Assembly: GCF_011764445.1 (NCBI RefSeq)
Contig: NZ_BLPG01000001.1
Coordinates: 186,001 to 250,000, forward strand
Reading direction: 5' to 3'
DNA length: 64,000 nucleotides
DNA from: Phytohabitans rumicis
Lineage (GTDB): Bacteria; Actinomycetota; Actinomycetes; Mycobacteriales; Micromonosporaceae
The notes under the pieces are model-generated. The model did no database searches and was not told the origin of the DNA. It saw only the letters and a list, made by a program, of their open reading frames with translations. Made by a program: the position numbers and the translations under genes. This document shows positions 13,561 to 45,523 of this stretch, piece by piece. Position 1 is the stretch's first letter; every line of letters starts with the position of its first letter.

Positions 13561-13584
13561 GGTGCACCTCCTTCCGGCGTGGGG

Positions 13585-15440: not shown

Positions 15441-15483
15441 CGATGTCCTTTCTGGACGGTCGGGGAGGTCTGGACGATCGGGG

Positions 15484-21754: not shown

Positions 21755-21756
21755 GC

Positions 21757-23439: not shown

Positions 23440-23447
23440 TCTTCCTC

Positions 23448-24014: not shown

Positions 24015-24212
24015 GCCCTCACGCTCCCCACGACAGACGGCATTGCAAGCGAATGTGGTTCGCACCGTAGGCTCCGCTCTGGGAGCGGTCCATAGCCGCG
24101 GCACGCTCTTATCTGATCAACTGACGCCGATTGCCCATTTGACTTCCGATTCCGGAACAGTGGACGACCCTGGAACGGGAAGCCCGATCGGCCATGGCGT
24201 ACCGCCGTTTGG

Positions 24213-24833
24213 TCATCCGCACAGTGCCTCCCGCACCGTGCGGGTCAAGGTGCCCACCGCGTGGACGGCGGAGAACTGGCCCGGCCGGATCACCAGCAGG
24301 TCCTCCACCGCGCAGAGCGGCGGCGCGTAGTCCAGGGCGGACGCCACGCCCGCGTTGCGCCGCGCCCACTCCGCGACGGTCGACAGCAGCAGGTCGACCG
24401 AGGCCGACGCGTCCAGGTCTTCGATCCGGCAGCGCAGCGACAGGCACTCCCGGTGTGGCCAGTAGGTCCACACCTTGGTCTCGTCGATGAGCTGGTCGAT
24501 CGCGCAGGACCGCCGGTAGTAGAGGGCCAGCTGCAGCGCGTCGAGGTTGTCGTCGACGATGAGGTCATTGATCAACGGGTGCTTGGCGTGCGCCCCGGTC
24601 ACCTCGTAGAACGTGCTGCGGCTGCCGCGCGGCTCGACCGCCAGGGCGACCTCCGACCAGCCGAGTTGCGGCGTACCCGCGGCGAGGAGGCGGCTCACCG
24701 CCGCGTAGTACGCGGTTTTGGTACGCCAGTGCCGCTTCTCCTCTGGATTCGTGCCGGCCAGCCGGCGACGCCATCGCGCCGTGACCGTCCCGTCCAGGCC
24801 GGAGCCACGCAGACCCACCGACACCCCGCCCAC
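24213..24833 (-). CDS. Hypothetical protein with TetR-like N-terminal HTH
   Basis: 206 residues from GTG 24833; starts at internal GTGs are also possible. Residues about 38-95 read AYYAAVSRLLAAG, GWSEVALAV and GSRSTFYEV in the spacing of a TetR helix-turn-helix (recognition helix followed by TFY). The C-terminal half is helical with no ligand motif I know. It lies 33 bases after the FAD monooxygenase on the same strand and about 200 bases before grpE. It could be a local regulator of the monooxygenase, whose upstream region has a perfect palindrome, or of locus A. Assignment is tentative. Confidence 0.5.
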   Translation of the reverse strand: MGGVSVGLRGSGLDGTVTARWRRRLAGTNPEEKRHWRTKTAYYAAVSRLLAAGTPQLGWSEVALAVEPRGSRSTFYEVTGAHAKHPLINDLIVDDNLDALQLALYYRRSCAIDQLIDETKVWTYWPHRECLSLRCRIEDLDASASVDLLLSTVAEWARRNAGVASALDYAPPLCAVEDLLVIRPGQFSAVHAVGTLTRTVREALCG

Positions 24834-24866: not shown

Positions 24867-26516
24867 CTAGGCGCGAGTCTGGCCGGCCAGGAGGGCGGGC
24901 ACATGGCGTGTTCGCGTGGGCTCTTGTCCGGTCACCCGATCGAGAACCGTGCCCCAGTCGGCCGGCGGGCTGTCGTCGCGCCACGCCACGTGCTGGTCGG
25001 GCCGGACCAGCACCAGGTCGCGTTCCCAACAGGCGCGGACCGCGAGGTCGTCGACGACCAGGTTGGTCATCGGGATCCCGCGCCCGTTCGCCTCCCGCAC
25101 CAGCGGCGCGCCCATGCCCCGGCCGGACAGGTCGACCAGGGTGAACGCGGCACCGAGCCGGTCGAAGAGCTCCCCGCCACCCCGCAGTCGCACCGCCGGA
25201 GCCCGGGTGCCGGGCCACGTGGTCGGGGTGATGCGCTCCCAGTGCCAGCTCGGCGCGTCGCCCCGCTCGTGCCAGATGACCGGCGAGTCCGCATAGCGCT
25301 GTCCGAAATGGACACCGAGGTTGTCGATCTGGTGGACGTCCTGCTCCAGGATGCCGGCCAGGTGCTCGCGGGAGACGCCGGCCGCGGCCAGCCGCTCGAA
25401 CCGCCGCCACACCTCGACCAGGCCGGCGCACAGCTCGCGGTTGAACAGCGCGACCGGGCGCCGCTCGGCCTCGTAGCTGTCCAGCAGCCGCGCCCCGCCC
25501 CAGCCGGACACCAGCGCGGCCAGCTTCCAGCCCAGGTCGACGGCGTCGGCGATGCCGGTGTTCACCGCGTGCCCGCCCACCGGGTAGAACCGGTGGGCCG
25601 CGTCCCCGACCAGGTACGCCGAGCCCTTGCCGTACGTCCGCGCGATCGCCAGCGAGCCCACCCACCGGGTCGCGCCGAGCACCTCGTCCACCGCCAGGTC
25701 GACGCCCAGCCGTTCCTGCACCAGACCCATCGGGTCGGTGGTCAACGGCTCGTCGACGGGCGCCCGGACGATGCCGATCCAGGTGTCCCGCTCGTCGTGG
25801 GAGACGAGCGTCAGGCCCCGCGCGACGATCGTGATGAAGGCCCGCCCGTGCCGGCGCAACACCGGATCGGCGCTCTTGAAGTGCACCGACAGGTGCTCGG
25901 TGGGGGTGCTCCACTCGTCGAACGGGATCTCCAGACACCGGCGCACCGTGCTGCCGGCACCGTCGCACGCCGCCAGGTAGCGGGCCTCGATGACGTGCCG
26001 CGTGCCGGTGCCCGGATCCACCACGGTCGCGGCCACGCCGCCCGCCTCGGACGCCAGGTCGGCGAAGGTCCACCCCTCCCGCACGTCGATGAGCGGATGG
26101 CGGCGGGCCGCGTCCCGGGTGAGGGCTTCGAGCAGCGATCCGGGAACCCGCTGGTACGGCTCGGCCGGCGCGGAGCCGTCGTTCACCGCGGCGTACCGCT
26201 GCCGCATCTGGTTGACCGACGGGTGGTGCCAGACCAGCACGGGGGGCTGCCCGAGGTCCTGCGCCCACAGCAGGTCGGTCGAGTGCTCCGGGTCGACGCC
26301 GCCCTCCCGGATTGCGCCGGCGAGGCCCAGCCGCCGCAGCAGCTCCATGCTGCGCCCGCTGAGGTAGCAGTCCATCTTCGGGTACGCGGCCGGCGCGACC
26401 GACCTTTCGATCACCACGCTGGGCACCTGATGGCGGGCCAGCTCCAGGGCGAGGAGCGCGCCCACGGCCCCGGCACCGACCACGAGCACCGGCGTGCTGA
26501 ATGTCTTCGCGGGCAA
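24867..26516 (-). CDS. FAD-dependent aromatic hydroxylase (PheA/TfdB/MhpA class)
   Basis: About 549 residues if started at TTG 26516, which has GGGGAGGA just upstream; a GTG at 26570 would extend it by 18 residues. Motifs of class A flavoprotein monooxygenases: dinucleotide site VLVVGAGAVGALLALELA, the DG-type segment AACDGAGSTVRR, and the second FAD site AYLVGDAAHRFYPVGGHAVNTG with WKLAALVSGWGG. A C-terminal thioredoxin-like part with LVLVRPDQHVAWR is typical for this class. It uses NAD(P)H and O2 to hydroxylate an aromatic ring. It follows the LAL regulator and PhzE on the same strand, so it is probably a tailoring enzyme of the aminohydroxybenzoate cluster. Confidence 0.85.
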   Translation of the reverse strand: MPAKTFSTPVLVVGAGAVGALLALELARHQVPSVVIERSVAPAAYPKMDCYLSGRSMELLRRLGLAGAIREGGVDPEHSTDLLWAQDLGQPPVLVWHHPSVNQMRQRYAAVNDGSAPAEPYQRVPGSLLEALTRDAARRHPLIDVREGWTFADLASEAGGVAATVVDPGTGTRHVIEARYLAACDGAGSTVRRCLEIPFDEWSTPTEHLSVHFKSADPVLRRHGRAFITIVARGLTLVSHDERDTWIGIVRAPVDEPLTTDPMGLVQERLGVDLAVDEVLGATRWVGSLAIARTYGKGSAYLVGDAAHRFYPVGGHAVNTGIADAVDLGWKLAALVSGWGGARLLDSYEAERRPVALFNRELCAGLVEVWRRFERLAAAGVSREHLAGILEQDVHQIDNLGVHFGQRYADSPVIWHERGDAPSWHWERITPTTWPGTRAPAVRLRGGGELFDRLGAAFTLVDLSGRGMGAPLVREANGRGIPMTNLVVDDLAVRACWERDLVLVRPDQHVAWRDDSPPADWGTVLDRVTGQEPTRTRHVPALLAGQTRA

Positions 26517-26568
26517 CCCGTCCTCCCCTCCCGGACCTCCGACAGCATGCGCTGGGAGGGGCAAATCC

Positions 26569-26590
26569 ACATGGCGTGTTCACGCCATGT
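26569..26590. promoter_or_regulatory. 22-bp perfect palindrome upstream of FAD hydroxylase
   Basis: Arms ACATGGCGTG and CACGCCATGT separated by TT, about 50 bases before the likely TTG start of the hydroxylase and just after the LAL regulator stop. Perfect 10-bp arms with a 2-bp centre fit a dimeric repressor (TetR/MarR size). A related sequence (ACATGGCGTGTTCGCG, 24900-24915) occurs at the 3' end of the same gene. Binding is inferred. Confidence 0.5.
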
Positions 26591-26606
26591 GTCCGGGCGG
26601 CGACGC

Positions 26607-29391
26607 CTACTTTCCGTGTAGCGCGTTGGTCAACGCGACCCGGCTGTTGACGCCGACCTTCTGGAAGATGTTGCGCAGGTGACTGTCCACAGTGTGCGGC
26701 GAGCAGCCCCGCTTCTCGGCGATCTCGCGGTTGCTCATGCCCTGCGCCACCATGCGGGTGATGGCCAGCTCGGTGGCGGTCAGGCCGCCGAGGGGGGTCG
26801 CGGGCGCGCCGCCCGGCGAGGACTTCACCCGGCTGCGTACGCCGAACCGGCGCAGCCTGCGCTCCATCCGTTCCACCGCCCGGCGCGCGCCGCAGGTGGT
26901 GGCCTCGGCGACCGCGTCCTCCAGCAGCTCGACCGCGCCGGAGCGGTGCCCCGCGTCGTGCTCGACCACCGCGAGGTCCTCCATCGCGCTGATCCGGGCC
27001 AGCGTGCGAGGGGTGGCCCGGTAGCGGTCGACGGCGTCGCGCAGGGCGACCGCGTCGCGTTTGAGCAGCCCTTCGGCGTGGGCCGCCGCGGCGGGCAGCG
27101 AGGGCACCGCCGGGTTGAGCTCGGCCAGCGCGCGTGCGGCGTCGACGGCCGCCCCGGCCACCGCCGGCTCCTTCGCCCGCAGCGCGACGCGCACCAGGTC
27201 GGCAGCCGCGCCGGGATCGTTGGCGAACAGCAGCAGGCGACCCGGCAGGGCATGGTGGATCTCCTCCAGGGTGGCCAGCGCCGCCTCGGGCTGGCCGTCC
27301 GCCGCCTGGAACACCGCGAAGGACCAGCCCACGTCCTCGGGCGCGGAGGTGATGCCCTCGTCGAGCAGGCGCTGCATGGCGCGCAGGTGCTCGCGGGCCA
27401 CCGGCATCTGGGCGCGGGCGACGGCCACCCTGGTCAGCATGCCGAGCAGGGGCAGGCACAGCTGCCAGGCGCTGAGCTGCTGCGCGATCCGGATGCCGGC
27501 CTCGGCCTCGGCCACCGCGTCGTCCAACCGGCCGCGCGCGGTGGCCAGCGAGGCGTTGTAGTACGCCCACAACGGCTGCGACCACGCCGTACCCAGCTCG
27601 TCCGCCTCGTGCCGGCCGACGGCGATGACCTCCTCGGCCTCGGCGAAGCGGTCCACCGCGGTGAGCGCGCCGCCCAACCAGATGCGCGGGTGCCGGTGCA
27701 ACGCGGCGCCACCGGCGCGGTCCGCGACCTGCACGGCGTGGCGGGCGTGCGCCACCGCGTCGGCGAGCCGGCCCTGGGCCTGGGCGACGACGCTGCGCGC
27801 CGCGCTGCCGAACGCCGACGCGGCGGGCTCGTCGTGCGCGGTGCCGAGCCGGTCGGCCTCGGCGCCGGCCTGCTCGGCCCCGGCAGGTCGTGCACGTACA
27901 GCAGCGCGTGCGCCTCGACGGCGTGCAGCCTGGCCCGGACCGCGGGCGGCACCGGCGACCCGGCCAGCGCCCGCCGGACGTAGTCGACGCACACCTGGTT
28001 CTGCCCGGCGTGCTTGAGCGCCTCCGCCAGGCCCAGCAGGACGGTGGCCTCGGTCTCGGCGTCCAGGCCATGGCGCAGCGCCGCCTCGCCCAGCTCGCGC
28101 GCCTCGGGCAGGCGCCCGGCGGATGCCAGCAGCCCGACCGCGGCCACGCTCAGCCGCAGCCGGCCGTCGGGATCGCCCAGCCGGTCGCGGGCCCGCAGGA
28201 TGAGGTCGGCGGCCGTGCTGGGGGCGCGGTCCGCGACCTCCTCGGCGGCGGCCCGCAACACCTGGACCGCGCCGTCGTCACCGGTCTGCCCGTCCAGCAG
28301 CAGATGCTCGGCGATCTCCGGCGGCGTGCCACCCGCCTGGCGGACCACGTCGGCGGCCTCGCCGTGCATGGCGGCGCGCACCGGCCCGCTCAGGTCGTCA
28401 TAGATCGCCTGCCGCAGCAGGTCGTGCGCGAAGGTCAGGGTCGCTCCCCGCGCCCGCAACACGCCGGTGGCCACCGCCTCGTCCACGGCCGTCAGCAGCT
28501 CGACCGCCCGCAGCCCCCACAGCTGGGCCGCGGCGTGCACCGTGAACGGGCGCCCGAAGACGGATCCGGCCTGCAGCAGCCGGATGGCCTGCGGCGACAG
28601 GCCGTACAGACGCTCGATGGCGGCCGCCCGGAAGTCGGCCGGCAGGTCGGCGCCCACCACCGAGGCGACGCCCTCGGCGACCAGGATCTGCCCGGCGGCC
28701 TGCAACGCGGTGAAGTACTGCTCCAGCAGGAACGGGTTGCCGTGCCCTCGGCGGCGAGGGCCAGCACCGTGGCGTCGGCCTCGGCACCGAGCACGTTCGA
28801 GCAGAGCGCGCCGACCGCGGCCTCGTCCAGCGGGGCGAGGGACAGTTGCTCGGCGCCCTCGCGGACCAGCCAGTCGATCGCCTCGTGGGCCGGCGACGGC
28901 GTCGCGGCCGGGCGCCGGGCCAGCACCCAGCGCACCGGCGAGGAGGACAGCCTCGGCACCAGCACGCGCAGGGCGAGCGCGCTGAACTCGTCCGTCCAGT
29001 GCGCGTCGTCGACGACCACCAGCAGCGGGCCGGCCGCCGCGTACTCCTCCAGGGCCTCGCCGATCCGCTCGACGTACCAGAGCCGGTCGCCCTGATGCTC
29101 GCGCAGCCCGGACAGGTCCACCGGGCGCGGTCGGGCCTCCCGCAGCGCCGAGACGACCGTCTTCAGCGGCGCCACCCGGTCCAGCTCGATCGCCTGCCCG
29201 GACGCCACCGCCAGCCCGGCCGCCGAGCCGTGCCGGATCATCTCAGCCAGCAGGCGGGTCTTTCCGATGCCGGGCGGCCCGGTGATCACCAGGCAGCCGC
29301 CGGTGCCGCCGGCGGTCGCGCGGAGCACATCGCGGAGTCGGGCCAGCTCGATGTCCCGGCCCACCAGCGCAGTCACCTGTCGGCTCTCCAT
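26607..29391 (-). CDS. LAL-family LuxR transcriptional regulator (two apparent frameshifts)
   Basis: About 925 residues when two 1-base losses (near 28740 and near 27880) are repaired. Start MESRQVTALVGRDIELARL. ATPase with Walker A GPPGIGKTRLL (about 40) and Walker B LLVVVDDAHWTD (about 125); the interrupted segment should read ...NPFLLEQYF...; a long TPR-like helical middle; C-terminal LuxR helix-turn-helix GLTATELAITRMVAQG, SNREIAEKRGCSPHTVDSH. LAL proteins are ATP-dependent activators, often pathway-specific in secondary metabolism. It lies between phzE (36 bases upstream) and the FAD hydroxylase, and is the likely activator of the cluster. All three frame segments are well conserved and collinear, so sequence error is favoured over a pseudogene. 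Confidence 0.85.
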
Positions 29392-29427
29392 ATGCGACCA
29401 TGCCTACCACATAGGACCCGAAGGCCG

Positions 29428-31311
29428 TCAGCCTCCGGAAGCACCGACTATCAGCTCCTGAAGGATCGAAGAACCGTGCACCGTCAGCACGGACTCCGGG
29501 TGGAACTGCACCGAGCGGACGCCCGGGCCGCGTAGCGCGTGGACCTCACCGGTGCCCGGGTCGCGGCTGACGTCGAGGGGTTCGGGCAGCAGCGGAGAGT
29601 CATGCCGATCGGTGCCGGCGTACGCGGCGAACGTGTTGTAGAAGCCGACGCGCTCCGCCCGCCCGAACAAGTCGATCTCCCGTTGCTCGCCCTGCGCCGG
29701 CGCCGGCCGCCGCCGCAGCGGCAGGCCGAGCACCGAAGCCAGGACCTGGTGACCGAGGCAGACGGCCACCAGCGGGGTACGCGCCGCGATCAGCGCCGCG
29801 ATCAGCCGGCGCAGCGCCGCGATCCTCGGCTCGGTGGCCAGCCGCGGATCCCCCGGCCCCGGCCCGGCGAGCACCGCGTCGTACCCGGCCGGCAGGCAGC
29901 CGTCGCCCACCGGCCGCACCGTCACGGCGAGCCGCAGGGCGCGCAGCTGGTACGCGATCATCGCGGTGAACGCGTCGCCGGCGTCGACCACCAGGACCCG
30001 CCGGCCGGCCGGCACCGCCGCGCTGGGGCGGCGCACCTGGCCCAGCCAGAACGGGGCGAGCCGCTCGTTGCGGGCGGTGAGCGCGGCCGCCACCCGCGGG
30101 TCCGTGCCGAACAGCGCCCGATTGCGCCGAAGCGGGCGTACCGGCCCGGCCGCGCCGCCGATCGCGGCGAGCAGACCGGCCGCCTTCGCCCGCGTCTCGG
30201 CGACCTCGCCGTCCGGGTCCGAGTGGCGGACCAGGGTCGCCCCGACGCCGATCTCCAGCCGGCCGTCCGCGCGGATGTCGGCGGTCCGGATGAGGATCGC
30301 CGAATCGAGCGTGCGGCGCCCGCCGCGCTGCCCGATCAGCGCCAGCACCCCGCCGTAGTAGCCGCGGCCGCGGGGCTCGTGCCGCTCGATCACCCGGCAG
30401 GCGTTCTCCAGCGGGCTGCCGGTCACGGTGGGCGCGAACATGGTCTGCCGCAGCACCTCGCGCACGTCCATGCCGGTCCGTCCGGCCAGGCTGTACTCGG
30501 TATGCGCCAGGTGCGCCATCTCGGTCAGCCGGGGGCCGGTGAGCGAAAGCTCGTCGTGGCAGATCCGGCCCAGCATCTTCAGCTCCTCGTCGACCACCAT
30601 GTAGAGCTCGTCGGTCTCCTTGCGGTCGGCGAGGAAGCGCAGCAGGCCGGCGGTGCTGGGCCCGCCCGCCGGATACCGGTACGTGCCGCTGATCGGGGTC
30701 ATCGCGGCCACGCCGCCGTCGAGGCTGACGTGCCGTTCGGGCGTCGCGCCGACGAGCGTCCGCCCTCCACAGTGGACCACGAAGGTCCAGTACGCGCCGC
30801 GTTCCAGGGCCAGCAGGCGGCGGAAGATGCCTAGCGCGGTACGGGGCGAGTGGTTGGCGACCGTCGCCACGAACGAGCGGCGGATCACGAAGTTGGACCC
30901 CTCCCCCGCGCCGATCTCGTCGGCGAGCACCCGGCGCACGACGGCGCGGTACTCGTCGTCGCCGGCGTCGAAACCCTGGGCGCCCAGGACGGCGCCGGTC
31001 GAGGGCAGCACGGCCAGCGCCTGCGCCACGGTCGCGGTTCCCCGCGCGCACGGCTGCAGGACCAGCAGCGGTGTGCCGTCGTCGTGGCACCCGAACCCGC
31101 GCTCGGTCAGCTGGCGGTACGGCACGACGGCCAGCAGGTCGTGGCCGTCCCGGCCCGGCCGTACCGGCGGCAGCGGCAGGTCGGCCAGCCGGTCGACGGC
31201 GCGGGCCGCGCCGAGGAGGATCTCCACCCGTTCGGGGGTGGCCGACCGGTGCACCAGCGCGAACGCCGGCGGGTCGGGGGCGAGCACGGTAGCCAGGTCC
31301 GCCATGGTCAT
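29428..31311 (-). CDS. phzE: 2-amino-2-deoxyisochorismate synthase (PhzE-type fused anthranilate-synthase-like)
   Basis: About 627 residues from ATG 31311 (MTMADLATV). The N-terminal ~420 residues are a chorismate-binding domain (GSNFVIRRSF, SGTYRYPAGG, DELKMLGRICHDELS-like region, ETRAKAAGLL); the C-terminal ~200 are a class I glutamine amidotransferase with nucleophile motif AVCLGHQ and FHPES. The TrpE-TrpG-type fusion in one chain is characteristic of PhzE. It converts chorismate and glutamine to 2-amino-2-deoxyisochorismate. Tryptophan-pathway anthranilate synthase is less likely because an isochorismatase and an SDR, the next two steps toward 3-hydroxyanthranilate, lie in the divergent operon. 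Starts 128 bases from that operon across a palindrome. Confidence 0.88.
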   Translation of the reverse strand: MTMADLATVLAPDPPAFALVHRSATPERVEILLGAARAVDRLADLPLPPVRPGRDGHDLLAVVPYRQLTERGFGCHDDGTPLLVLQPCARGTATVAQALAVLPSTGAVLGAQGFDAGDDEYRAVVRRVLADEIGAGEGSNFVIRRSFVATVANHSPRTALGIFRRLLALERGAYWTFVVHCGGRTLVGATPERHVSLDGGVAAMTPISGTYRYPAGGPSTAGLLRFLADRKETDELYMVVDEELKMLGRICHDELSLTGPRLTEMAHLAHTEYSLAGRTGMDVREVLRQTMFAPTVTGSPLENACRVIERHEPRGRGYYGGVLALIGQRGGRRTLDSAILIRTADIRADGRLEIGVGATLVRHSDPDGEVAETRAKAAGLLAAIGGAAGPVRPLRRNRALFGTDPRVAAALTARNERLAPFWLGQVRRPSAAVPAGRRVLVVDAGDAFTAMIAYQLRALRLAVTVRPVGDGCLPAGYDAVLAGPGPGDPRLATEPRIAALRRLIAALIAARTPLVAVCLGHQVLASVLGLPLRRRPAPAQGEQREIDLFGRAERVGFYNTFAAYAGTDRHDSPLLPEPLDVSRDPGTGEVHALRGPGVRSVQFHPESVLTVHGSSILQELIVGASGG

Positions 31312-31340
31312 GCACCCACGCTGGCATCCGTCGCCCGCCG

Positions 31341-31368
31341 GGGCCACTACCAGCACGAGTAGTGGCCC
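31341..31368. promoter_or_regulatory. Palindromic operator-like site between phzE and the plus-strand operon
   Basis: Perfect 10-bp arms GGGCCACTAC and GTAGTGGCCC with an 8-base spacer, in the middle of the 128-base divergent intergenic region. A TTGACG (about 31396-31401) lies between it and the plus-strand start. One bound dimer could control both directions. Regulator unknown; the LAL protein or the 80-residue LuxR protein are candidates. Confidence 0.55.
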
Positions 31369-31439
31369 GCCTGCCCCGGCTGACCTAGCGTCGAGTTGAC
31401 GGCGATCCACCGTCCGATGTAGACCGACGGGAGGCCGGG

Positions 31440-32231
31440 ATGTCCGGGCACGGGTCCTTCGCACGTACCTTGCGGCACCGCCGCCTCTGGCGGCACAGCG
31501 GCCGGCTCTTCGTGGTGCCGCTCGACCACGCCGTGACCACCGGGCCGATCGTTCCCGGTGCCCGCCTCGACCACCTGGTCGGCCAGCTCGCCGAGTGCGG
31601 CGTCGACGCGGTCGTCCTGCACAAGGGGTGCCTGCGGCGCGTCCGGGCCGAGCACTTCCAGGGCATGTCGCTGATCGTCCACCTGAGCGCGAGCACCTGC
31701 CGGGCCGCCGACCCGGACGCGAAGTACCTCGTCGCCACCGTGGCGGAGGCGGTACGGCTCGGCGCGGACGCGGTCAGCGTGCACGTCAACGTCGGCTCGC
31801 GCGACGAGGCGCGCCAGATCGCCGACCTGGCCGGCGTGGCCGAAGCCTGCGACCGCTGGAGCGTGCCGCTGCTGGCCATGATGTACCCGCGCGGACCGGC
31901 CACCCGCGACCCGCGCGACCCGGCGCTCATCGCGCATGCCGTCGCCATCGCCGCCGACCTCGGCGCGGACATCGTCAAGACCGTGTACCCCGGTTCGGCG
32001 GCGGCGATGCGGGACGTCACCCGCGCGGCCGGAGTGCCGGTCCTGGTGGCCGGCGGGCCGCAGCACGCCGCCGGCGACCTCCTCGACCAGATCGGTGCGG
32101 CGCTGCGCGGCGGGGCCGCGGGTGTCGCGATAGGACGGAACATCGCGCTGGCCGACGATCCGGCGGCGACGGCACGGAAGGTCGCCGACCTCGTGCACGG
32201 CCAGAGCGAGCCAGAAGCCATTATCCAATGA
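31440..32231 (+). CDS. griI: 2-amino-4,5-dihydroxy-6-oxo-7-(phosphooxy)heptanoate synthase (GriI-type aldolase)
   Basis: 263 residues, ATG preceded by GGGAGG. DhnA/class Ib fructose-bisphosphate-aldolase fold: VVPLDHAVTTGPI near residue 25, LIVHLSASTC, the Schiff-base region ADIVKTVYPG (Lys) and phosphate-binding VLVAGGP and GVAIGRNI. GriI and its relatives condense aspartate-4-semialdehyde with dihydroxyacetone phosphate to the C7 precursor of 3-amino-4-hydroxybenzoate; archaeal AroA' is the other family function (shikimate entry). The adjacent GriH-type enzyme supports the first. Its last codons and stop are part of a 38-bp tandem duplication. Confidence 0.88.
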   Translation: MSGHGSFARTLRHRRLWRHSGRLFVVPLDHAVTTGPIVPGARLDHLVGQLAECGVDAVVLHKGCLRRVRAEHFQGMSLIVHLSASTCRAADPDAKYLVATVAEAVRLGADAVSVHVNVGSRDEARQIADLAGVAEACDRWSVPLLAMMYPRGPATRDPRDPALIAHAVAIAADLGADIVKTVYPGSAAAMRDVTRAAGVPVLVAGGPQHAAGDLLDQIGAALRGGAAGVAIGRNIALADDPAATARKVADLVHGQSEPEAIIQ

Positions 32232-32283
32232 GGACAGAGATGAACGAGCCAGAAACCATTATCCAAGGAGGACAGAGATGAAA
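32208..32283 (+). repeat. 38-bp tandem duplication across the griI-griH junction
   Basis: Two adjacent copies beginning GAGCCAGAA and containing ATTATCCAA and GAGGACAGAGATGA, period 38 bases, differing at two internal positions and the final base. The first copy contains the griI stop and a Shine-Dalgarno/ATG; the second contains the griH Shine-Dalgarno and ATG. It creates a short leader reading frame at 32240-32281. Confidence 0.9.
32240..32281 (+). CDS. 13-residue leader peptide (MNEPETIIQGGQR) coupled to griH
   Basis: Created by the tandem duplication: AGGACAGAG precedes its ATG, and its TGA overlaps the griH ATG (ATGA). The codons mirror the last codons of griI (EPEAIIQ). Whether it is translated is unknown; it may couple translation of griH to griI or be neutral. 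Confidence 0.4.
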   Translation: MNEPETIIQGGQR

Positions 32284-33381
32284 CTGTGCTGGTTGGACAT
32301 CCGCGCCACGGGAGCGCTCACGGACGCGGTCCGCGCGGAGGCGATCCACGGGCGGATCGACGCGATCGTCGCGGGAGACGCCGCCGATCTGGCGCCGCTG
32401 CCGCCCACCGTCACCAAGGTGTTGCTGGCCAAGGACGGCCGGCTGCCGGACGACATCGGCACAGCGGACATCGTCGTGGTCGGCGCCGAACGGGCCGGTG
32501 AGTACGAGGAACTGGCCCGGCGCCACCCCGATGTCCACCATGGACGGTACGTCGAGGTGACCGACGCGGCGAGCCTGGACCTGGCCTGCCACTGCGCCAG
32601 CACCGGCGCGTGGACGGTGCTCTCGTTCCGCGACCCGACGAAGATCCCGCTGGAGATCGTGCTCGCCGCCGCCGCCGACGCGCCGGGCAGCGTCGTCACG
32701 GTGGTCGACGATCCCGCCGACGCGGCGGTGGTCTTCGGCGTCCTGCAGCACGGGTCGGACGGGGTGATGCTGGCGCCCCGCGCGGTCGGCGACGCCAGCC
32801 GGCTCAAGGCCGCCGCCGAGCCGCCGCTTCCCGACCTGGGGCTGGTGGAGCTGTCCGTCACCGGCGTACGGCACGTCGGCATGGGCGAGCGGGCCTGCGT
32901 GGACACCTGCACCTACCTGCGCCCCGACGAGGGGATCCTGGTCGGCTCGCACGCCAAGGGGATGCTGGTGTGCGCGAGCGAGACGCATCCCCTGCCGTAC
33001 ATGCCGACCCGGCCGTTCCGGGTCAACGCCGGCGCCATCATGTCGTACACGCTCGCCGGTGCGGGGCACACCCGCTACCTCAGCGAGCTGCGCGCCGGCG
33101 CCGAGGTGCTCGCGGTCGACGCGCACGGGCGTACCCGGCTGGTCACCGTCGGCCGCGTCAAGATCGAGACCCGGCCGCTGCTGGCCATCGACGCGGTCGC
33201 CGCGGACGGCCGCACGGTCAACGCGATCGTGCAGGACGACTGGCACGTACGGGTGGTCGGCAAGGGCGGCACGGCGCTCAACTCCACCACGCTCGCACCG
33301 GGCGACATCGTGCTCGGGCACCTGCCGACCCGGGAGCGCCACGTCGGCTATCCCATCGACGAGCTGTGCTACGAGCAATGA
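32278..33381 (+). CDS. griH: 3-amino-4-hydroxybenzoate synthase (GriH-type, 3-dehydroquinate synthase II family)
   Basis: 367 residues, ATG with AAGGAGG upstream. Family features: KLCWLDIRA at the start, DPTKIPLEIVLA (about residue 120), GERACVDTCTYLRPDEGILVGSHAKGMLVCASE (metal/nucleotide region), NAGAIMSYTLA, and C-terminal GHLPTRERHVGYPIDE. DHQS-II family enzymes cyclise the GriI product; GriH produces 3-amino-4-hydroxybenzoate. The coupled GriI-type gene supports this function over archaeal 3-dehydroquinate synthesis, since the host should have the standard shikimate pathway. Its stop overlaps the amidohydrolase start as ATGA. Confidence 0.9.
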   Translation: MKLCWLDIRATGALTDAVRAEAIHGRIDAIVAGDAADLAPLPPTVTKVLLAKDGRLPDDIGTADIVVVGAERAGEYEELARRHPDVHHGRYVEVTDAASLDLACHCASTGAWTVLSFRDPTKIPLEIVLAAAADAPGSVVTVVDDPADAAVVFGVLQHGSDGVMLAPRAVGDASRLKAAAEPPLPDLGLVELSVTGVRHVGMGERACVDTCTYLRPDEGILVGSHAKGMLVCASETHPLPYMPTRPFRVNAGAIMSYTLAGAGHTRYLSELRAGAEVLAVDAHGRTRLVTVGRVKIETRPLLAIDAVAADGRTVNAIVQDDWHVRVVGKGGTALNSTTLAPGDIVLGHLPTRERHVGYPIDELCYEQ

Positions 33382-34148
33382 CCGTCTTCGACTTCCACGC
33401 CCGCCTCACGCCGGAGCCGGAGGCGCTGCCGAGGCTGCTGCGCGCCCTGGACGCCGCCGGGATCGCCCGCGCCGCCATCGCCGCCGGCGGCGTGGTCGAC
33501 CTGGACCGGCTGTCCGCGCAGCTCGTCGACGGCGGCCACAGCCGGGCCACGGCCGACAACGAGACGGTACGCGCGGCCGGGGCGGGCAGCGGCGGCCGGC
33601 TGGTGCCGTTCTACTTCGCCAACCCGTACGCGGGAGTGCGCGCGTACCGCCGGGACGCGGCCCGCTTCCGCGGCCTCGAGCTGTCGCCGGCGGTGTACGG
33701 GGTGGGCTTTCGCGACCCGCGCACGGTCGCGCTGGTCGAGGTGGCCGCCGCGGCGGCGCACCCGGTCTACACCGTCGGCATTGGACAGTCCGGCGCCCGC
33801 ACGGCCGACCTGGTCGACCTCGCCCGCGAGTTTCCCGCCGTCCCGTTCGTGCTGGGGCACTGCGGCTTCACCGGCATCGACATCCACGCCGTCAACCTGA
33901 TCGCGCCCCAGCCGAACATCGCCGCCGAGACCTCCGGCTGCTACAGCGTCGTGGCCCGCGCGGCCGTGGACCTGCTCGGTGCCGACCGGGTGCTCTTCGG
34001 CACCGAGTACCCCTTGCAGCACCCGAGCGTGGAGCTCGCCAAGCTCGCCGCGCTCGACCTGGACCCGTGTTCGTTTCGGAAGGTGGCCTGGGAGAACGCC
34101 CACCGCCTGCTCGGAGAGACTCATCAAGCCGAGGGACGTGTACTGTGA
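33378..34148 (+). CDS. Amidohydrolase-like enzyme, candidate benzoxazole-forming cyclase
   Basis: 256 residues, coupled at both ends (ATGA and GTGA). It is a small amidohydrolase-2-type TIM barrel: VFDFHARL at the start, HPVYTVGIGQ, VLGHCGFTGID and LFGTEYPLQHP. The usual metal pair HxH is HxR here and the late Asp of GSDYP is Glu, so the metal site differs from hydrolytic relatives. In described benzoxazole pathways (nataxazole, caboxamycin, closoxazole type) an amidohydrolase homologue paired with an AMP ligase forms the heterocycle. The next gene is such a ligase. Function is inferred from context; simple amide hydrolysis remains possible. Confidence 0.7.
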   Translation: MTVFDFHARLTPEPEALPRLLRALDAAGIARAAIAAGGVVDLDRLSAQLVDGGHSRATADNETVRAAGAGSGGRLVPFYFANPYAGVRAYRRDAARFRGLELSPAVYGVGFRDPRTVALVEVAAAAAHPVYTVGIGQSGARTADLVDLAREFPAVPFVLGHCGFTGIDIHAVNLIAPQPNIAAETSGCYSVVARAAVDLLGADRVLFGTEYPLQHPSVELAKLAALDLDPCSFRKVAWENAHRLLGETHQAEGRVL

Positions 34149-35460
34149 CCGACACCCTGACCGCCCGGCCCGCCATCGGGCAGTGGCGCGACTACGCCGA
34201 ACTGGCCGGCCTGCAGGACCGCCGGCTGCCGTACGCGCTGGTGGCGGCGGCCCGATCCCCGTTCTACCGCGCCCGCCTGCGCGCCGGCGTGCCCGAGGAC
34301 CGGGCCGGGCTGCTCGACGTGCCGCTGACCACCAAGCGGGACCTGCGGGACAGCTACCCGTTCGGGCTGCTCGCCGTGCCCCGGGCCCGGCTGGCGACGT
34401 ACCACGAGTCCAGCGGCACCAGCGGGGTCCCGACCGCGTCCTACTACACCGCGGACGACTGGCACGACCTCGCCGAGCGGTACGCCCGCAAGTGGGTCGG
34501 CATCACCGCCGACGACGTGTTCCTGGTCCGCACGCCGTACGCCCTGATGATCACGGGCCATCTGGCGCACGCGGCGGCCCGCCGGCACGGCGCCACCGTC
34601 GTACCGGGCGACAACCGGTCGCTGGCCATGCCGTACGCGCGGGTGGTGCGGGTCCTGCACGACCTCGGCGTGACGCTCACCTGGTCGCTGCCCACCGAGA
34701 CGCTGCTGTGGGCCGCCGCGGCGAAGGCCGCCGGGTACCGGGCCGACCGGGACTTCCCCGCGCTGCGCGCCCTCTTCGTCGGGGGTGAGCCGCTGGGCAC
34801 CGCCCGCAAGGCGCGCATCGCCGAGCTCTGGGGGTGCCGGTCGTCGAGGAGTACGGGTCCACGGAGACCGGCAGCCTGGCCGGCGAGTGCCCGCACGGCC
34901 GCCTGCACCTGTGGGCGGACCGGGCGCTGTTCGAGGTCTACCACCCGGACACCGGGCTGACCTCGCCGGACGGCCGCGGCCAGCTCGTCGTGACGCCGCT
35001 GTTCCGCGAGGCCATGCCGCTGCTGCGCTACAACCTCGAGGACGACGTGGACGTCTCGTACGACGCGTGCGACTGCGGCTGGCAGCTGCCGACCGTGCGG
35101 GTGCTGGGCCGGTCGGCCGTCGGCTACCCGGTCGGCCACGGCACCGTCACCCAGGCCGCCGTGGAGGAACTCGTCTTCGCCCTGCCCGCCCGGTACGAGG
35201 TGACGTTCTGGCGGGCCCAGGCCGGCCCGGACCGCCTGCGGGTCGAGATCGAGGTGCCGGACCAGCACCGGGCGGCCGCGTGCGCGCAGCTGTGCGGGTC
35301 GATCCTGTCGGCGCTCGACGTCGACGCCCAGGTGTGCGGGCTGCCGCCCGGGCGGCTGGTGCCGCACCAGGTGCTCACCGCCCAGCCGGACGTTCTCAAG
35401 CCGCGTGGCCTGTTCGGCGCGGACGAGAACTGGGACAGCGCGCTGCTCTACTACCGCTGA
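34145..35460 (+). CDS. AMP-forming acyl/aryl ligase (PaaK-like; one apparent frameshift)
   Basis: About 438 residues after repairing one lost G in the GGGGG run near 34830. GTG start overlaps the previous stop. Motifs: ATP loop SSGTSGVPT (about residue 85), FVGGEPLGTARK, then EEYGSTETG after the break, PLLRYNLEDDV and the C-terminal domain from AAVEELVF. Relatives such as phenylacetate-CoA ligase activate aromatic acids as adenylates. Here it probably activates one aminohydroxybenzoate for coupling to a second one. Both halves are intact and collinear, so the break is likely sequence error. Confidence 0.8.
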
Positions 35461-35471
35461 GAGGGCCGGAG

Positions 35472-36620
35472 ATGACGAACGTTCGGGTCGCCGTCGTCGG
35501 CGCGGGCATCGCCGGCCTGTCCGCGGCCGCCTTCCTCGCCCGGGTGGGCGTGCGCTGCGACGTCTTCGAGCAGGCCGACCCGCCGGACGAGGCGGGCGCC
35601 GGCATCCAGCTGTCCCCCAACGCCACCCGGCTGCTGCACCGGGCCGGTCTGGCCGCGCACCTGGCGGCCACGGCGGTCCGCCCGGCCGCGATCGAGCTGC
35701 GCCGGTGGGCGAGCAACGAGGTCATCGGGCGCACCCGGCTGGGCGCCGCGTGCGAGTCCAGCTACGGCGCGCCGTACTACACGACGCACCGGGCGGACCT
35801 GCACCGCGGGCTGCTCGACCTGGTCGCGCGGGGGTCGACCGTCCACTTCGGCCGCCGATGCGTCGGCGTGCTGGAGCGGCCGGGCCGGGTCGAGCTGCGC
35901 TTCGCCGACGGCTCGGACGGCGCGGCGGACCTGGTGATCGGCGCGGACGGCATCCACTCCACCGTCCGCGCCGTGCTCGCCCCGGGCCGGTCCCGGCCGA
36001 CCGGCCTCGCCGTCCATCGTGGACCGGTGCCGGGCACCGCGTCGCGGGTCCGCGTCTGGCTCGGGCCCGGCCGCCATGTCGTCTGCTATCCGGTCGCCGA
36101 GAAACGGCTCAACGTCGTCGCGGTGACGCCCGCGGGCGACGCCGACCTCGCCACCGCGTACGAGGGCTGGCACGAGGAGGTGCGGGAGCTGCTGGCGGCG
36201 GGCCCGTTGACCACCCGGCCGCTGACCGAGCGCGATCCGCTGCCCCGCCGGCGTACCCGGCGCATCGCCATGGTCGGTGACGCCGCGCACCCGCTGCTGC
36301 CGTTCGGTGCGCAGGGCGCCAACCAGGCCGTCGAGGACGCGGCCGCCCTCGCCGCCTGTCTACGTACTCCCGGATCGGGTGGCGTGGCCGCGGCGCTGCT
36401 GCGGTACGAGCGGGTGCGGCTGCCCCGGCTCGCGCGGGTCGCCGGCCTCGTCGCGGACAACGCGGCCGCCCTGCACCTGCCGGACGGCGCGGCGCAGCGG
36501 TGGCGGGACCGCACCATGCGGGGACGGGAGGGGCTGCGGGCACGCGCCTGGCTGTACGGCTACGACGCGGAAGCCGCCGTCCTCGCGCCCGCCCGGCACC
36601 GCCAGGGAGCGGCGCGATGA
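35472..36620 (+). CDS. FAD-dependent monooxygenase (salicylate hydroxylase / PhzS-like)
   Basis: 382 residues starting [22 protein letters not shown] motifs: [42 protein letters not shown], and [26 protein letters not shown]. Length and motifs match single-component aromatic hydroxylases that often decarboxylate and hydroxylate in one step (NahG, PhzS, 6-hydroxynicotinate 3-monooxygenase). Substrate is presumably an aminohydroxybenzoate or the coupled product. The stop overlaps the SDR start (ATGA). Confidence 0.85.
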
Positions 36621-37390
36621 GCGCCGCGAACGTCGCCCTGGTCACCGGCGCGGCCGGCGGGATCGGCGCCGCGGTGGCGCGCACGCTGGCCGGAGGCGGC
36701 GCCCGGACGGCCGTGGTGGACGTGGACGCGGCCGGGGCGGCCCGGATCGCCGCCGACCTGAGCGCGCGCGGGCACGACGCCAAGGCGTACCGGGCGGACG
36801 TGCGCGACAGCGCGGCCGTCGAGCACCTCGTCGGCCGGGTCGAGGACGAACTGGGCCCGATCGGCGTCCTGGTCAACGTAGCCGGGGTGCTGCGCACCGG
36901 GTCCATCGTGGACTCCACCGACGCGGACTGGCGGGCGGTCTTCGACGTCAACCTGGCCGGCGTCGTGCACTGCTGCCGGGCGGTCGCCCGGCGGATGGTG
37001 CCCCGCCGGTCCGGCGCCATCGTCACGGTCGGCTCCAACGCGGCCGGCGTGCCCCGGACGGGCATGGCGGCGTACGCGGCGTCCAAGGCGGCTAGCGCCC
37101 ACTTCACCCGCTGCCTCGGGCTGGAACTGGCCCAGCACGGCATCCGCTGCAACGTGGTGGCGCCCGGGTCCACCGACACCGCGATGCAACGGTCGATGTG
37201 GACTGGCGGCGTCGACGCCGCGGCCGTGGTCCGGGGCTCCCCGGCGGCGTACAAGGTGGGCATCCCGCTGGGCCGGTTGGCGCAGCCGGAGGACGTCGCC
37301 GACGCGGTCGCCTTCCTCGCCTCCGACCGGGCCAGGCACATCACCATGCAGGAGCTGTACGTCGACGGCGGCGCCGCGCTGCGCGGCTGA
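36617..37390 (+). CDS. SDR oxidoreductase, probable 2,3-dihydro-3-hydroxyanthranilate dehydrogenase
   Basis: 257 residues, classical short-chain dehydrogenase: [12 protein letters not shown] cofactor loop, NVAGVL, catalytic Ser in VTVGSNAAG, YxxxK in AYAASKAAS, and a C-terminal DGGAAL. It resembles the 2,3-dihydro-2,3-dihydroxybenzoate dehydrogenase (EntA/DhbA) group. Between PhzE/PhzD and an aromatic product, the expected reaction is oxidation of trans-2,3-dihydro-3-hydroxyanthranilate to 3-hydroxyanthranilate. Adjacent to phzD (12 bases), which supports this. Confidence 0.8.
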
Positions 37391-37402
37391 AAGGAGAACC
37401 CG

Positions 37403-38068
37403 ATGAGCATTCCGGCCATCCGGCCGTACCCGATGCCGACCGAGGCCGACCTCGGCGCCAGCGTGCCGTCCTGGCGGCCGGACGCGGGGCGGGCGCTGCT
37501 GCTGATCCACGACATGCAGCGGTACTTCGTCGACCTGTTTCCGGCCGGCGAGGCGCCGATGCGGGACCTGCTGGCCAACCTGCGGCGCATCCGGCACGCC
37601 GCGACCGCGCTGGGGATGCCCGTGGTCTACACGGCGCAGCCGGGCCGGATGAGCCGGCGGCGGCGCGGCCTGCTGCGCGACTTCTGGGGTCCGGGGATGC
37701 GTTCGGACGGGCCCGACCGCGAGATCGTTTCCGCGCTCCGGCCGGGACCGGGCGACGTGCTGGTCGAGAAGTGCCGGTACAGCGCGTTCCACGACACCGG
37801 CCTCGCGGAGGTCCTCCGGACGCACCGGCGCGACCAGCTGATCGTGTGTGGCGTGTTCGCGCACATCGGCTGTCTCATGACGGCGTGCGACGCGTTCACC
37901 CGCGACGTGGAGCCGTTTCTGATCGCCGACGCGGTGGCCGACTTCACCGCGCCGGACCACCGGATGGCGCTGGAGTACGCGGCGCGCACGTGTGCGGTCA
38001 CCATGACGACCGGCCGGCTACTGGATCTGCTCGTCGCCCGGGACGATCCGGGCCAGCTCGACGCGTGA
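37403..38068 (+). CDS. phzD: Isochorismatase-family hydrolase (PhzD)
   Basis: 221 residues, AAGGAG before ATG. Catalytic features: Asp in LLLIHDMQRYF, Lys in VEKCRYSAFHDTGL, and the Cys-position segment VCGVFAHIGCLMTA, where the nucleophile-position residue is Ala-His (as in PhzD/EntB) rather than the Cys of nicotinamidases. N-terminal AIRPYPMPTEADL is typical of PhzD. It removes pyruvate from 2-amino-2-deoxyisochorismate to give trans-2,3-dihydro-3-hydroxyanthranilate. Last gene of the operon; its 3' end overlaps the convergent LuxR gene by about 50 bases. Confidence 0.9.
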   Translation: MSIPAIRPYPMPTEADLGASVPSWRPDAGRALLLIHDMQRYFVDLFPAGEAPMRDLLANLRRIRHAATALGMPVVYTAQPGRMSRRRRGLLRDFWGPGMRSDGPDREIVSALRPGPGDVLVEKCRYSAFHDTGLAEVLRTHRRDQLIVCGVFAHIGCLMTACDAFTRDVEPFLIADAVADFTAPDHRMALEYAARTCAVTMTTGRLLDLLVARDDPGQLDA

Positions 38069-38260
38069 GACGATGCCGAGCTTCCGGAAGATCTGCCGCA
38101 GGTGGTAGTTCACCGTGTGCGGCGACAGTTGCAGGCGCCGCGCGATCTGCTGGTTGGTGAGCGCCTGGCTGACCAGCCGGGCGACCGCGCGCTGGGTGTC
38201 GGACAGCGCGGCCCATCCGCCCGCGCCGGTGTGCGTACCGAGCATGCTGACGACGATCAC
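38018..38260 (-). CDS. Stand-alone LuxR-type HTH protein
   Basis: 80 residues from GTG 38260, with AAAAGGAG six bases upstream. It consists almost only of a LuxR/GerE DNA-binding domain: ALSDTQRAVARLVSQA, NQQIARRLQLSPHTVNYHLRQIF. There is no receiver or sensor domain. The domain resembles the C-terminus of the LAL regulator in this cluster (SPHTV..HLR.IF.K.G..SRV). Convergent with and overlapping phzD. Likely a cluster regulator; an inhibitor or partner of the LAL protein is possible. Confidence 0.75.
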   Translation of the reverse strand: MIVVSMLGTHTGAGGWAALSDTQRAVARLVSQALTNQQIARRLQLSPHTVNYHLRQIFRKLGIVSRVELARIVPGDEQIQ

Positions 38261-38334
38261 CGTAGGCTCCTTTTCCTCGCCGGTACGCCGATCGTGCGCG
38301 CGCCGGCCGCCGAAGATGGCCCAGTAGTAGGGGA

Positions 38335-39065
38335 TCAGGCGGTCAGACTTCGTACGTCCTCGGCGCCGTCGCCGAGGACGCGCAACGCCGGCACGTCCAC
38401 CACGGTGATCTGCCGGTAGCCCGTCCGGATCACGCCGCACTCGCGCAGCTCGCGGAACGCCTTCTGCACGGTGGCCTCGGCGACGCCGATCATCGTGGCC
38501 AGCTCGGGTTGGCTCAGCGGTACGCCGAGGCTCAGTCCGTCGTCGGTCTGCCGGCCACAGGTCGTGGCGATCTCGACCAGCAGCCGGGCGAGGCGCACCT
38601 CGGCCGGGTACGCGGCAAAGTCCGACCGGCGCTGGTTGGACCAGCGCAGCCGCTCCCCAGGGCCGCCGCCATGTTCAGCGCCGCCGCGGGGTTCTCCCGC
38701 AGGAACCGCCGGAACTCGCCCTTGGACAGCACGCAGGAGGTGACCCGGCCGCAGGTGGTGACGGTCGCCATCCGGGGCCGGCCGGTCAGCGCCGCCATCT
38801 CGCCGAGGATGTCGCCCGGCATCCGGATGGCCATCAGCACCTCGACACCGTCGAGCACGTTGGTGACCTTCACGAACCCGCGGATCAGCACCTCCACGTG
38901 CGTGCTGAGCTCGCCCTCGCGCAGCAGCGGGCGGCCGGCCCCGAACTGCCGCCGGACGCCGCTGGCAAGCAGTTCGGCGCACTTGTCCGGGGGCAGCGAC
39001 GCCAGGAAGCTGCCCGGCGTCCACCCGGGTCCGAACTGGCGGTTCATCGGCTTCACCGGCTTCAT
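38335..39065 (-). CDS. Crp/Fnr-family transcriptional regulator (one apparent frameshift)
   Basis: About 243 residues after repairing one lost G in the GGGG run near 38658. Start at MKPVKPMNR (39065) or MNRQFG (39047). N-terminal cyclic-nucleotide-binding fold: FGAGRPLLREGELSTHVEVLIRGFVKV, IRMPGDILGEMAAL, TTCGRVTSCVLSKGEFRRFL. C-terminal winged helix: LSQPELATMIGVAEATVQKAFREL. The effector could be a cyclic nucleotide; a nucleotide-cyclase-like gene is 0.7 kb away. It overlaps or abuts the transmembrane effector gene and is on the same strand. Confidence 0.85.
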
Positions 39066-39069
39066 CGCC

Positions 39070-39582
39070 TCATCGCCCCCAGCCCGCCGTCACGGCCACC
39101 AGCATGACAAGCATGGCGAGCAGTGTCAGCAACACCGAGCCCTGCAGCAGCCGGTGCTTGCGCCAATTCAGCCGGCTCATCCTGATCAGCTGGGTGGACA
39201 GCGCCCGCACCTCGTCCCGTTCCGTCAGCACGGCCAGCCGCGACTCCAGCGCCACCGGCTGCCACAGCCGCAGATGTCCGAAGTAGATCCAGTGCTGGCC
39301 GCATTCGCGCCGGTGCCGGCGTACCGCGCCCAGGGCGGGCAGGATGGCCGTCGCGGCGAAGCCCATCGCGGTCAGCAGCAGCACCATCGCCCCGGCCACG
39401 GCGCCCGGCCGGGCGCCGACGAGCGCCGGCGGCGACGTCGACACGAAGATGAGCACACCGCCCTGGAACGCCAGCATGATGGATGCCTTCATGTCCACCT
39501 TGGCCGTCCACGACTCCAGTGCCGTGTGCACCCGCCAGGCGAACTCCGCCGGCGAGGAGTCCATCGTCCGATCCGGTCTCAC
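39070..39582 (-). CDS. Pycsar-type transmembrane effector (PycTM/DUF5706-like)
   Basis: About 170 residues from GTG 39582 (GGGAG seven bases upstream; an ATG at 39615 is an alternative). The N-terminal AWRVHTALESWTAKVDMKASIMLAF is the diagnostic segment of PycTM domains. Two hydrophobic segments follow, then a charged middle region, and a third hydrophobic helix at the C-terminus (LLQGSVLLTLLAMLVMLVAVTAG). In Pycsar defence, cyclic CMP or UMP triggers the effector to disrupt the membrane. A cyclase-like gene is divergently transcribed next to it. Confidence 0.75.
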   Translation of the reverse strand: MRPDRTMDSSPAEFAWRVHTALESWTAKVDMKASIMLAFQGGVLIFVSTSPPALVGARPGAVAGAMVLLLTAMGFAATAILPALGAVRRHRRECGQHWIYFGHLRLWQPVALESRLAVLTERDEVRALSTQLIRMSRLNWRKHRLLQGSVLLTLLAMLVMLVAVTAGWGR

Positions 39583-39799
39583 GGTCACGCTCCCACCCCA
39601 TCCTGCCCCGCCCATGAGCCCAGCGTGACGGCGGTAGCACGCTCAGATGTACCAGGATTACGGGTTCAGCCGGATATATCATTCGGTGAAACTCGTGGGC
39701 GGTACGATGATCCGCCATTCCATCCGGCCGTTACGCGCATTGATTCCGGGTTTGGGAGCGTGCCAGACTGCACGGGCCCAATTCCGTAGGAGGCACCGC
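39583..39799. promoter_or_regulatory. Divergent promoter region, PycTM effector / cyclase-like gene
   Basis: 217 bases, AT-richer than the neighbours, with stretches such as GGATATATCATT at about 39671-39682. The cyclase-like gene has GGAGG before its GTG. No clear -35/-10 pair or known operator could be assigned. Confidence 0.35.
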
Positions 39800-45504: not shown

Positions 45505-45523
45505 GTCAGTCGCGCCCTTTCCC

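Follow-up and report, generated by a model that had tools for sequence, protein, structure and literature searches.

A compact gene cluster of the actinomycete Phytohabitans rumicis, at positions 24867-38260 of the 64,000-nucleotide stretch analysed here (contig NZ_BLPG01000001.1, positions 186,001 to 250,000; called the window in the following), brings together the genes of two aminohydroxybenzoate routes, an AMP ligase, an amidohydrolase-fold protein and two flavin adenine dinucleotide (FAD) monooxygenases, named FMO1 and FMO2 below. By sequence comparison, the core of this cluster is the core of the diazepinomicin (dzm) cluster, and the nearest described pathway is that of diazepinomicin and not that of the benzoxazoles. 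The product is probably an unprenylated dibenzodiazepinone, no prenylation being expected from a cluster that has neither a dzmP-type prenyltransferase nor mevalonate genes. A sequence-only reading of the same DNA had assumed that the two precursor routes are joined in one product, which is probably right, as both gene sets are present and the ligase is NatL2-like with Glu235 kept. The product it had proposed, a mixed benzoxazole of an undescribed type, is unlikely in view of the core shared with diazepinomicin, the resemblance of FMO2 to decarboxylative enzymes, and the loss of metal-site residues in the amidohydrolase-fold protein.

Diazepinomicin (ECO-4601/TLN-4601) is called structurally unique in nature and has reached a phase II trial; in the available part of the source, the dzm genes are individually untested except for the prenyltransferase, which has been studied, and the ring B precursor is speculative (PMC3871700). 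The connection to the window is made by Micromonospora chalcea, in which the same core adjoins genes for a polyprenyl synthase, a diphosphomevalonate decarboxylase, a 3-hydroxy-3-methylglutaryl-CoA (HMG-CoA) synthase and an ABBA prenyltransferase. Bonitz et al. printed primers for dzmP, orf10 and orf12 of Micromonospora RV115, which produces diazepinomicin (PMC3871700), and among 14 loci tried, these primers match the M. chalcea locus and that of one further genome (G182) with 0 mismatches; at the other prenylated loci tried, they fit with 1-3 mismatches or have no match within this limit. The M. chalcea prenyltransferase has 296 amino acids, the same as DzmP. A search of 354 genomes of the family turned up the amidohydrolase in 47, P. 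rumicis included, and 47 loci were taken from the 46 others. Eight of these 46 genomes have a DzmP-type prenyltransferase (79-100% identity to that of M. chalcea) not more than about 13 kb away from the amidohydrolase, and all eight loci hold GriI, GriH, amidohydrolase, ligase, FMO2, a short-chain dehydrogenase/reductase (SDR), PhzD and PhzE, with an HMG-CoA synthase match at six of them. Komaki and Tamura, in the text available, assign clusters of a diazepinomicin-like kind to P. houttuyneae and P. suffuscus and none to P. rumicis. What the comparison shows directly is gene content and homology, the trees, the residue patterns and the fact that the core is linked to an authenticated dzmP. In the open-access literature, no text was found that pairs diazepinomicin with an amidohydrolase, with grixazone or with GriH, and where both diazepinomicin and a 3-amino-4-hydroxybenzo- compound occur, the available passages name them apart and in unrelated contexts.

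From this, we infer the substrates, the order of the steps, the role of the amidohydrolase and the product as follows. The NatL2-like ligase would adenylate 3-hydroxyanthranilate and acylate the amine of the second ring, either directly or via the ortho-hydroxyl group. FMO2 would then exchange the carboxylate of the second ring for a hydroxyl, and FMO1 might add a further hydroxyl, leading to a quinone. The anthranilate amine could close onto this quinone, aided by the amidohydrolase-fold protein as a candidate condensase that would act without a metal, and no dzmP-type prenylation step would come afterwards.

A broader consequence concerns ring B of diazepinomicin itself, which McAlpine's proposal, since repeated, derives from 3-amino-5-hydroxybenzoate (according to the available parts of PMC3871700 and PMC6524458). 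The gene comparison indicates that ring B probably derives from 3-amino-4-hydroxybenzoate and not from 3-amino-5-hydroxybenzoate, because GriI and GriH, which are 3-amino-4-hydroxybenzoate enzymes, are encoded in all eight prenylated clusters. The 3-amino-5-hydroxybenzoate synthase belongs to a DegT-type family, and a scan that took in 20 genes at the M. chalcea cluster, a part of all its genes, showed no DegT-type protein. If the atoms are mapped by reasoning, the C3 amino group would become the amide nitrogen, the carbon carrying the C4 hydroxyl would become the carbon bound to the second nitrogen, and C1 would exchange its carboxylate for a hydroxyl. FMO2 fits this last exchange because it resembles decarboxylative hydroxylases: its best relatives in the PDB include vanillate 1-hydroxylase, 6-hydroxynicotinate 3-monooxygenase and 4-hydroxybenzoate decarboxylase, with tropone 2-monooxygenase also scoring high. 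A role of GriI and GriH as sole entry into the shikimate pathway, which the sequence-only reading had kept in mind as a counter-explanation, was rejected because a canonical AroB is encoded elsewhere in the genome, at 1.88 Mb (3-deoxy-D-arabino-heptulosonate 7-phosphate synthases were not searched for).

The other half of the molecule is addressed by the ligase, whose pieces have AjiA1, presumably from the AJI9561 pathway, and NatL2 as closest PDB relatives, the N-terminal piece being 64% identical to NatL2. In a tree of 76 ligase N-terminal parts, NatL2 and AjiA1 lie inside a 66-row clade together with the window (99% support in the Shimodaira-Hasegawa-like approximate likelihood ratio test, SH-aLRT); outside this clade are nine ligases of the His/Lys-type loci described below and the proteobacterial row L128. 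The ligase thus groups with the benzoxazole ligases; a place outside their clades would have spoken against the sequence-only reading. Glu235 of NatL2 contacts the hydroxyl of 3-hydroxyanthranilate, and ClxA has Tyr218 at this site (available text of PMC12519233). This glutamate is kept in the window ligase and altogether in 61 of the 63 rows of the window type, the window being counted; the other type has Asp in 9/9.

The amidohydrolase-fold protein is the more unusual component. In its tree (75 rows), the window protein groups with two loci from metagenome-assembled genomes (98%), and a 65-row group (96%) takes in every one of the 51 rows that have PhzD or PhzE and excludes ten loci that lack these genes within 10 kb. 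A screen of positions 1-249 of the window protein revealed five columns that split the two groups at a level of at least 85%, namely 9, 42, 101, 103 and 133. The ten-locus group has His at column 9 (9/9 readable), Lys at column 101 (10/10) and His at column 133 (10/10), as opposed to Arg (64/64 readable), Glu (65/65) and Val (62/65) in the group of the window. In the predicted barrel, residues 9, 101 and 133 lie in strand 1, in strand 4 and just past strand 5, which we take to be places where amidohydrolases usually bind their metal. Three presumed metal-site residues thus appear to be replaced in the clade of the window. An amidohydrolase outside the benzoxazole clades would have spoken against the sequence-only reading, and this is now partly the case, as the three presumed metal-site residues are lost in the window, whereas ten relatives keep them. 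The two types also differ in their surroundings: within 10-kb flanks, some of them cut by contig ends, an FMO2-like gene is found in 52 of 58 named Arg/Glu-type loci and PhzD or PhzE in 44 of the 58, versus 0 of 10 His/Lys-type loci in both cases. One His/Lys-type locus is that of Nocardiopsis lucentensis DSM 44048, to whose protein the window amidohydrolase is related at 53%. This strain makes nocarbenzoxazoles (available text of PMC5983278), and their link to the His/Lys locus is a candidate assignment. In Nocardiopsis sp. JB363, a single contig carries one amidohydrolase of each type at a distance of about 20 kb (L142, L159), and this pair is natural material for an enzyme comparison.

We suggest that the residue change reflects a change of reaction, from a metal-aided attack on a carbonyl to closure onto a quinone. 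A metal would be dispensable because an amide or ester carbonyl needs it for the attack and a quinone carbonyl does not. In a PDB profile search with the amidohydrolase, no enzyme named as benzoxazole-forming was among the matches listed; in the fold search, 2,6-dihydroxybenzoate and 5-carboxyvanillate decarboxylases rank first, and the models of both types are most like aromatic acid decarboxylases. Judged from the models, a plain decarboxylase is therefore a possible role, which we set aside because FMO2 already accounts for the loss of the carboxylate.

The core is not restricted to P. rumicis. The 47 family loci contain GriH in 46 cases, the ligase in all 47, FMO2 in 44, SDR in 28, PhzD in 32, PhzE in 35, and PhzD or PhzE in 36 (counted with fixed bit-score thresholds, several loci ending at contig ends). 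Scanning the GTDB genomes yielded 68 named loci, many of them from the genomes already covered; with set thresholds, 66 have the ligase, 61 GriH, 52 FMO2 and 44 PhzD or PhzE within 10-kb flanks. In the 47 family loci, this gene association is far above chance. An aspartokinase-like gene is present in 37 of the 68 named loci, including five of the ten His/Lys loci, and fits the 3-amino-4-hydroxybenzoate route because it would feed aspartate-semialdehyde, the precursor used by GriI. Tentatively, actinomycetes may have a widespread family of unprenylated dibenzodiazepinones, closed by an amidohydrolase without its metal site (His9Arg, Lys101Glu, His133Val) that joins an aromatic amine and a quinone, and diazepinomicin may owe its ring B to 3-amino-4-hydroxybenzoate. 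Phytohabitans suffuscus carries one prenylated and one unprenylated cluster (L119, L130). On a contig of a gammaproteobacterial metagenome-assembled genome (L128), GriI, GriH and FMO2 occur together with a distant ligase and an amidohydrolase of the Arg/Glu type, and the gene order differs.

Which other products could arise from such a cluster? In the mixed benzoxazole, the ligase would join 3-hydroxyanthranilate to 3-amino-4-hydroxybenzoate, and the amidohydrolase would close the oxazole. Among PDB entries, the benzoxazole ligases NatL2 and AjiA1 are indeed the nearest relatives of the ligase, the amidohydrolase has its 53% relative in a nocarbenzoxazole producer, and one His/Lys-type locus has a 3-hydroxyanthranilate cassette 18-21 kb away. 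We nevertheless regard this product as unlikely, since the three presumed metal-site residues are gone, whereas NatAM, as described in PMC12118335, depends on zinc, since FMO2 would strip the carboxylate, and since the diazepinomicin cluster has this core alongside dzmP. The strain with the distant cassette, Streptomyces sp. NRRL F-5135 (L155; L178-L179), is perhaps a better candidate for a mixed benzoxazole. Slightly less probable still is another fused or open product of both halves, such as a phenoxazine, a dibenzoxazepinone or a simple amide. The ring type is a prediction from the genes, and neighbouring genes vary (three Phytohabitans loci have a PhzF-like gene and lack an SDR match), which leaves room for such compounds; the conserved core in common with the diazepinomicin cluster argues against them. 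As for dibenzoxazepinones, the mycemycin pathway was rejected: it relies on a tryptophan dioxygenase, on a salicylate synthase and on an amide-forming enzyme that resembles a ketosynthase (available text of PMC5867642), and none of the three is among the cluster genes searched.

A prenylated, diazepinomicin-like product could be formed if the prenyltransferase came from elsewhere in the genome, and the genome searched (10,714,690 bases, three contigs) does contain two ABBA prenyltransferase genes. These are the only ones; they lie at 1.09 Mb, about 0.87 Mb from the cluster, and their products share no more than 51% and 42% identity with M. chalcea DzmP, as compared to 79-100% for the eight cluster-linked enzymes. 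Moreover, the 23-row amidohydrolase clade of the window comprises 22 further loci, and none of these has a prenyltransferase nearby; two of them (L100, L101) end at contig ends, and their genomes show no prenyltransferase. For HMG-CoA synthase (PF08540), there is no match in the P. rumicis genome, the other mevalonate genes not having been searched for. Such a product is thus highly improbable, and so is a decaying, inactive cluster, which four frame breaks across the genes for the ligase (two frames), a LuxR-type regulator of the LAL type (three) and a CRP-type regulator (two) might suggest. The remaining eight core genes have open frames, and the essential rpoC is likewise split into two frames in the P. 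rumicis assembly (L177), so that indel errors seem common. The genome authors themselves asked, in the available part of their article, whether split genes in Phytohabitans are artefacts (PMC7692728). For these two reasons, the breaks are probably assembly errors.

Several points weigh against an unprenylated dibenzodiazepinone or limit how precisely it can be drawn. The M. chalcea dzm cluster has an aspartokinase and a multicopper oxidase, neither of which was found in the window, and in the present assembly a frame break interrupts the ligase gene. The FMO1 proteins of prenylated clusters are only about 40-46% identical and encoded at a different place, for which reason the second hydroxylation is uncertain. 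In liquid chromatography-mass spectrometry of four Phytohabitans strains, among which P. rumicis grew poorly, diazepinomicin was not seen, according to the available part of PMC7692728. A PhzD-like match (E up to 1e-30) is absent from six of nine family genomes that were chosen for a locus without PhzD and PhzE; these six still hold amidohydrolase, ligase, FMO2 and FMO1, so that the acyl half may differ between clusters or be supplied by another route. At three unprenylated Phytohabitans loci (L055, at 5105-5911, L051 and L052), a PhzF-like gene is present and the SDR is not matched. The family may thus yield several products, and the exact hydroxylation in the case of the window is uncertain. 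Nor is the split between Arg/Glu and His/Lys types complete: L155, which is of the His/Lys type with GriI and GriH, has SDR, PhzD and PhzE 18-21 kb off on its contig and beyond them a gene that matches FMO2 weakly (33% identity, 132 bits), and a PhzD-like gene is present somewhere in five of the eight His/Lys genomes searched. Finally, both the ligase and the amidohydrolase tree come from quick searches with SH-aLRT support only.

The genes were called by codon-position GC content and by family profile searches (Pfam, NCBIfam, PDB), and all gene types that the sequence-only reading had named were recovered at their places, including its two FAD monooxygenases and its LuxR regulators. On the plus strand, GriI, GriH, amidohydrolase, ligase, FMO2, SDR and PhzD follow each other almost end to end; PhzE, the LAL regulator and FMO1 lie divergently on the minus strand. 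The GriI/BagB-like aldolase of the 3-amino-4-hydroxybenzoate route (31440-32231) is above the cut-off of NCBIfam PRK07226 and reaches 353 bits with BagB_FevI, below the cut-off of 500. The GriH/BagC-like 3-amino-4-hydroxybenzoate synthase of the dehydroquinate synthase II family (32278-33381; Pfam DHQS) is above the cut-offs of PRK02290.1-3 and, with 540 bits, below that of BagC_FevH (750); the genome has a single copy of its gene. They are followed by the amidohydrolase-fold protein with Arg9, Glu101 and Val133 (33378-34148; Amidohydro_2; mean predicted local distance difference test score of the model 95) and by the NatL2/BagE/AjiA1-like ligase (34145-35460; PDB 6wuq, 6siw), whose two frames are separated by a break near 34830-34840 and whose C-terminal part reaches 276 bits with BagE_FevW, which is under the cut-off. 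Next come FMO2 as a decarboxylative-hydroxylase-like FAD monooxygenase (35472-36620; PDB 8x38, 8uiq and 8gsm among the best matches), the SDR as candidate dihydro-3-hydroxyanthranilate dehydrogenase (36617-37390; Pfam adh_short, matched on the longer open reading frame (ORF) 36500-37390), and the PhzD-like isochorismatase (37403-38068; Pfam; best PDB matches the PhzD structures 3r77 and 1nf9).

On the minus strand, the PhzE-like 2-amino-2-deoxyisochorismate synthase (29428-31464; Chorismate_bind and GATase) probably starts further downstream than its ORF; it matches the NCBIfam anthranilate synthase models far under their cut-offs, and its assignment is based on the domain architecture and on the PhzD alongside, since these scores are too low to carry it. 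The LAL-type LuxR regulator (26607-29391; GerE, AAA_16) is distributed over three frames, all of which are spanned by a 925-residue protein of a relative, and FMO1 is a FAD aromatic-ring hydroxylase (24867-26570; FAD_binding_3 and Rng_hyd_C; best PDB chains 4eip and RebC 2r0c). The cluster probably extends to the left up to 24213, as judged from conservation: a minus-strand gene at 24213-24833, for a protein without a Pfam match that looks like a helix-turn-helix protein by eye, adjoins FMO1 in related unprenylated clusters and was matched by tblastn in 13 of the 47 family loci, some of which end before it (66% in L035). To the right, also on the minus strand, lie a short LuxR-type regulator (38018-38440; GerE), a CRP-type regulator with a cyclic-nucleotide domain (38380-39065; cNMP_binding), of which the pieces 39029-38688 and 38652-38380 match relatives and homologues of which occur in 18 of the 47 family loci, alongside related unprenylated clusters, and a PycTM-like membrane protein (39070-39615; Pfam PycTM), found near the cluster in five. 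For nonribosomal peptide synthetase or polyketide synthase families, there was no match among the window ORFs searched, which are a part of all ORFs.

A nucleotide cyclase, suspected by eye at 39647-41110 (487 amino acids), stays a tentative reading, as Pfam, PADLOC and PDB gave nothing meaningful; relatives of this protein (29-34% identity) are found in five of the 47 family loci. Genes for Hsp70, GrpE-like, GAP1, VWA, DO-GTPase2 and CHAT proteins flank the cluster at 12904-24104 and 41091-48873, with weak PADLOC matches, and this gene content suggests that the cluster sits within a conflict or defence island.

For the antitumour compound diazepinomicin, the comparison of clusters points to the precursor of ring B and to testable candidates for ring closure, and if it is true, many actinomycetes would make the bare ring system. 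The two amidohydrolase clades, with the metal site kept or lost, may show how one fold shifts from oxazole to diazepine closure. How, then, does the cluster compare to known systems? With the nataxazole type (NatL2-NatAM; AjiA1), it shares a ligase with Glu235 that is 64% identical to NatL2 in its N-terminal part, and the 3-hydroxyanthranilate route; it differs by the additional GriI and GriH and the decarboxylative-type FMO, and its amidohydrolase belongs to Amidohydro_2 with a metal site that is changed relative to closer relatives, NatAM being compared by its description only. With closoxazole (clx, pfx), it shares the 3-amino-4-hydroxybenzoate genes together with an AMP ligase and an amidohydrolase (PMC12118335), but closoxazole has two ligases of the ClxA/ClxC type, whereas one ligase, a NatL2-like one, was found in the window, which in addition has the 3-hydroxyanthranilate route (PhzE, PhzD, SDR) and FMO2. 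Bagremycin and ferroverdin (bag/fev) have GriI/GriH-type genes in common with it as well as a ligase matched by its C-terminal part (BagE_FevW), but all three NCBIfam scores are under their cut-offs, and the partner genes differ. It is the dzm cluster in which GriI, GriH, amidohydrolase, NatL2-like ligase, FMO2, SDR, PhzD and a divergently placed PhzE are arranged as in the window, and which differs from the window by the place of FMO1 and by its aspartokinase, multicopper oxidase, dzmP prenyltransferase and mevalonate genes.

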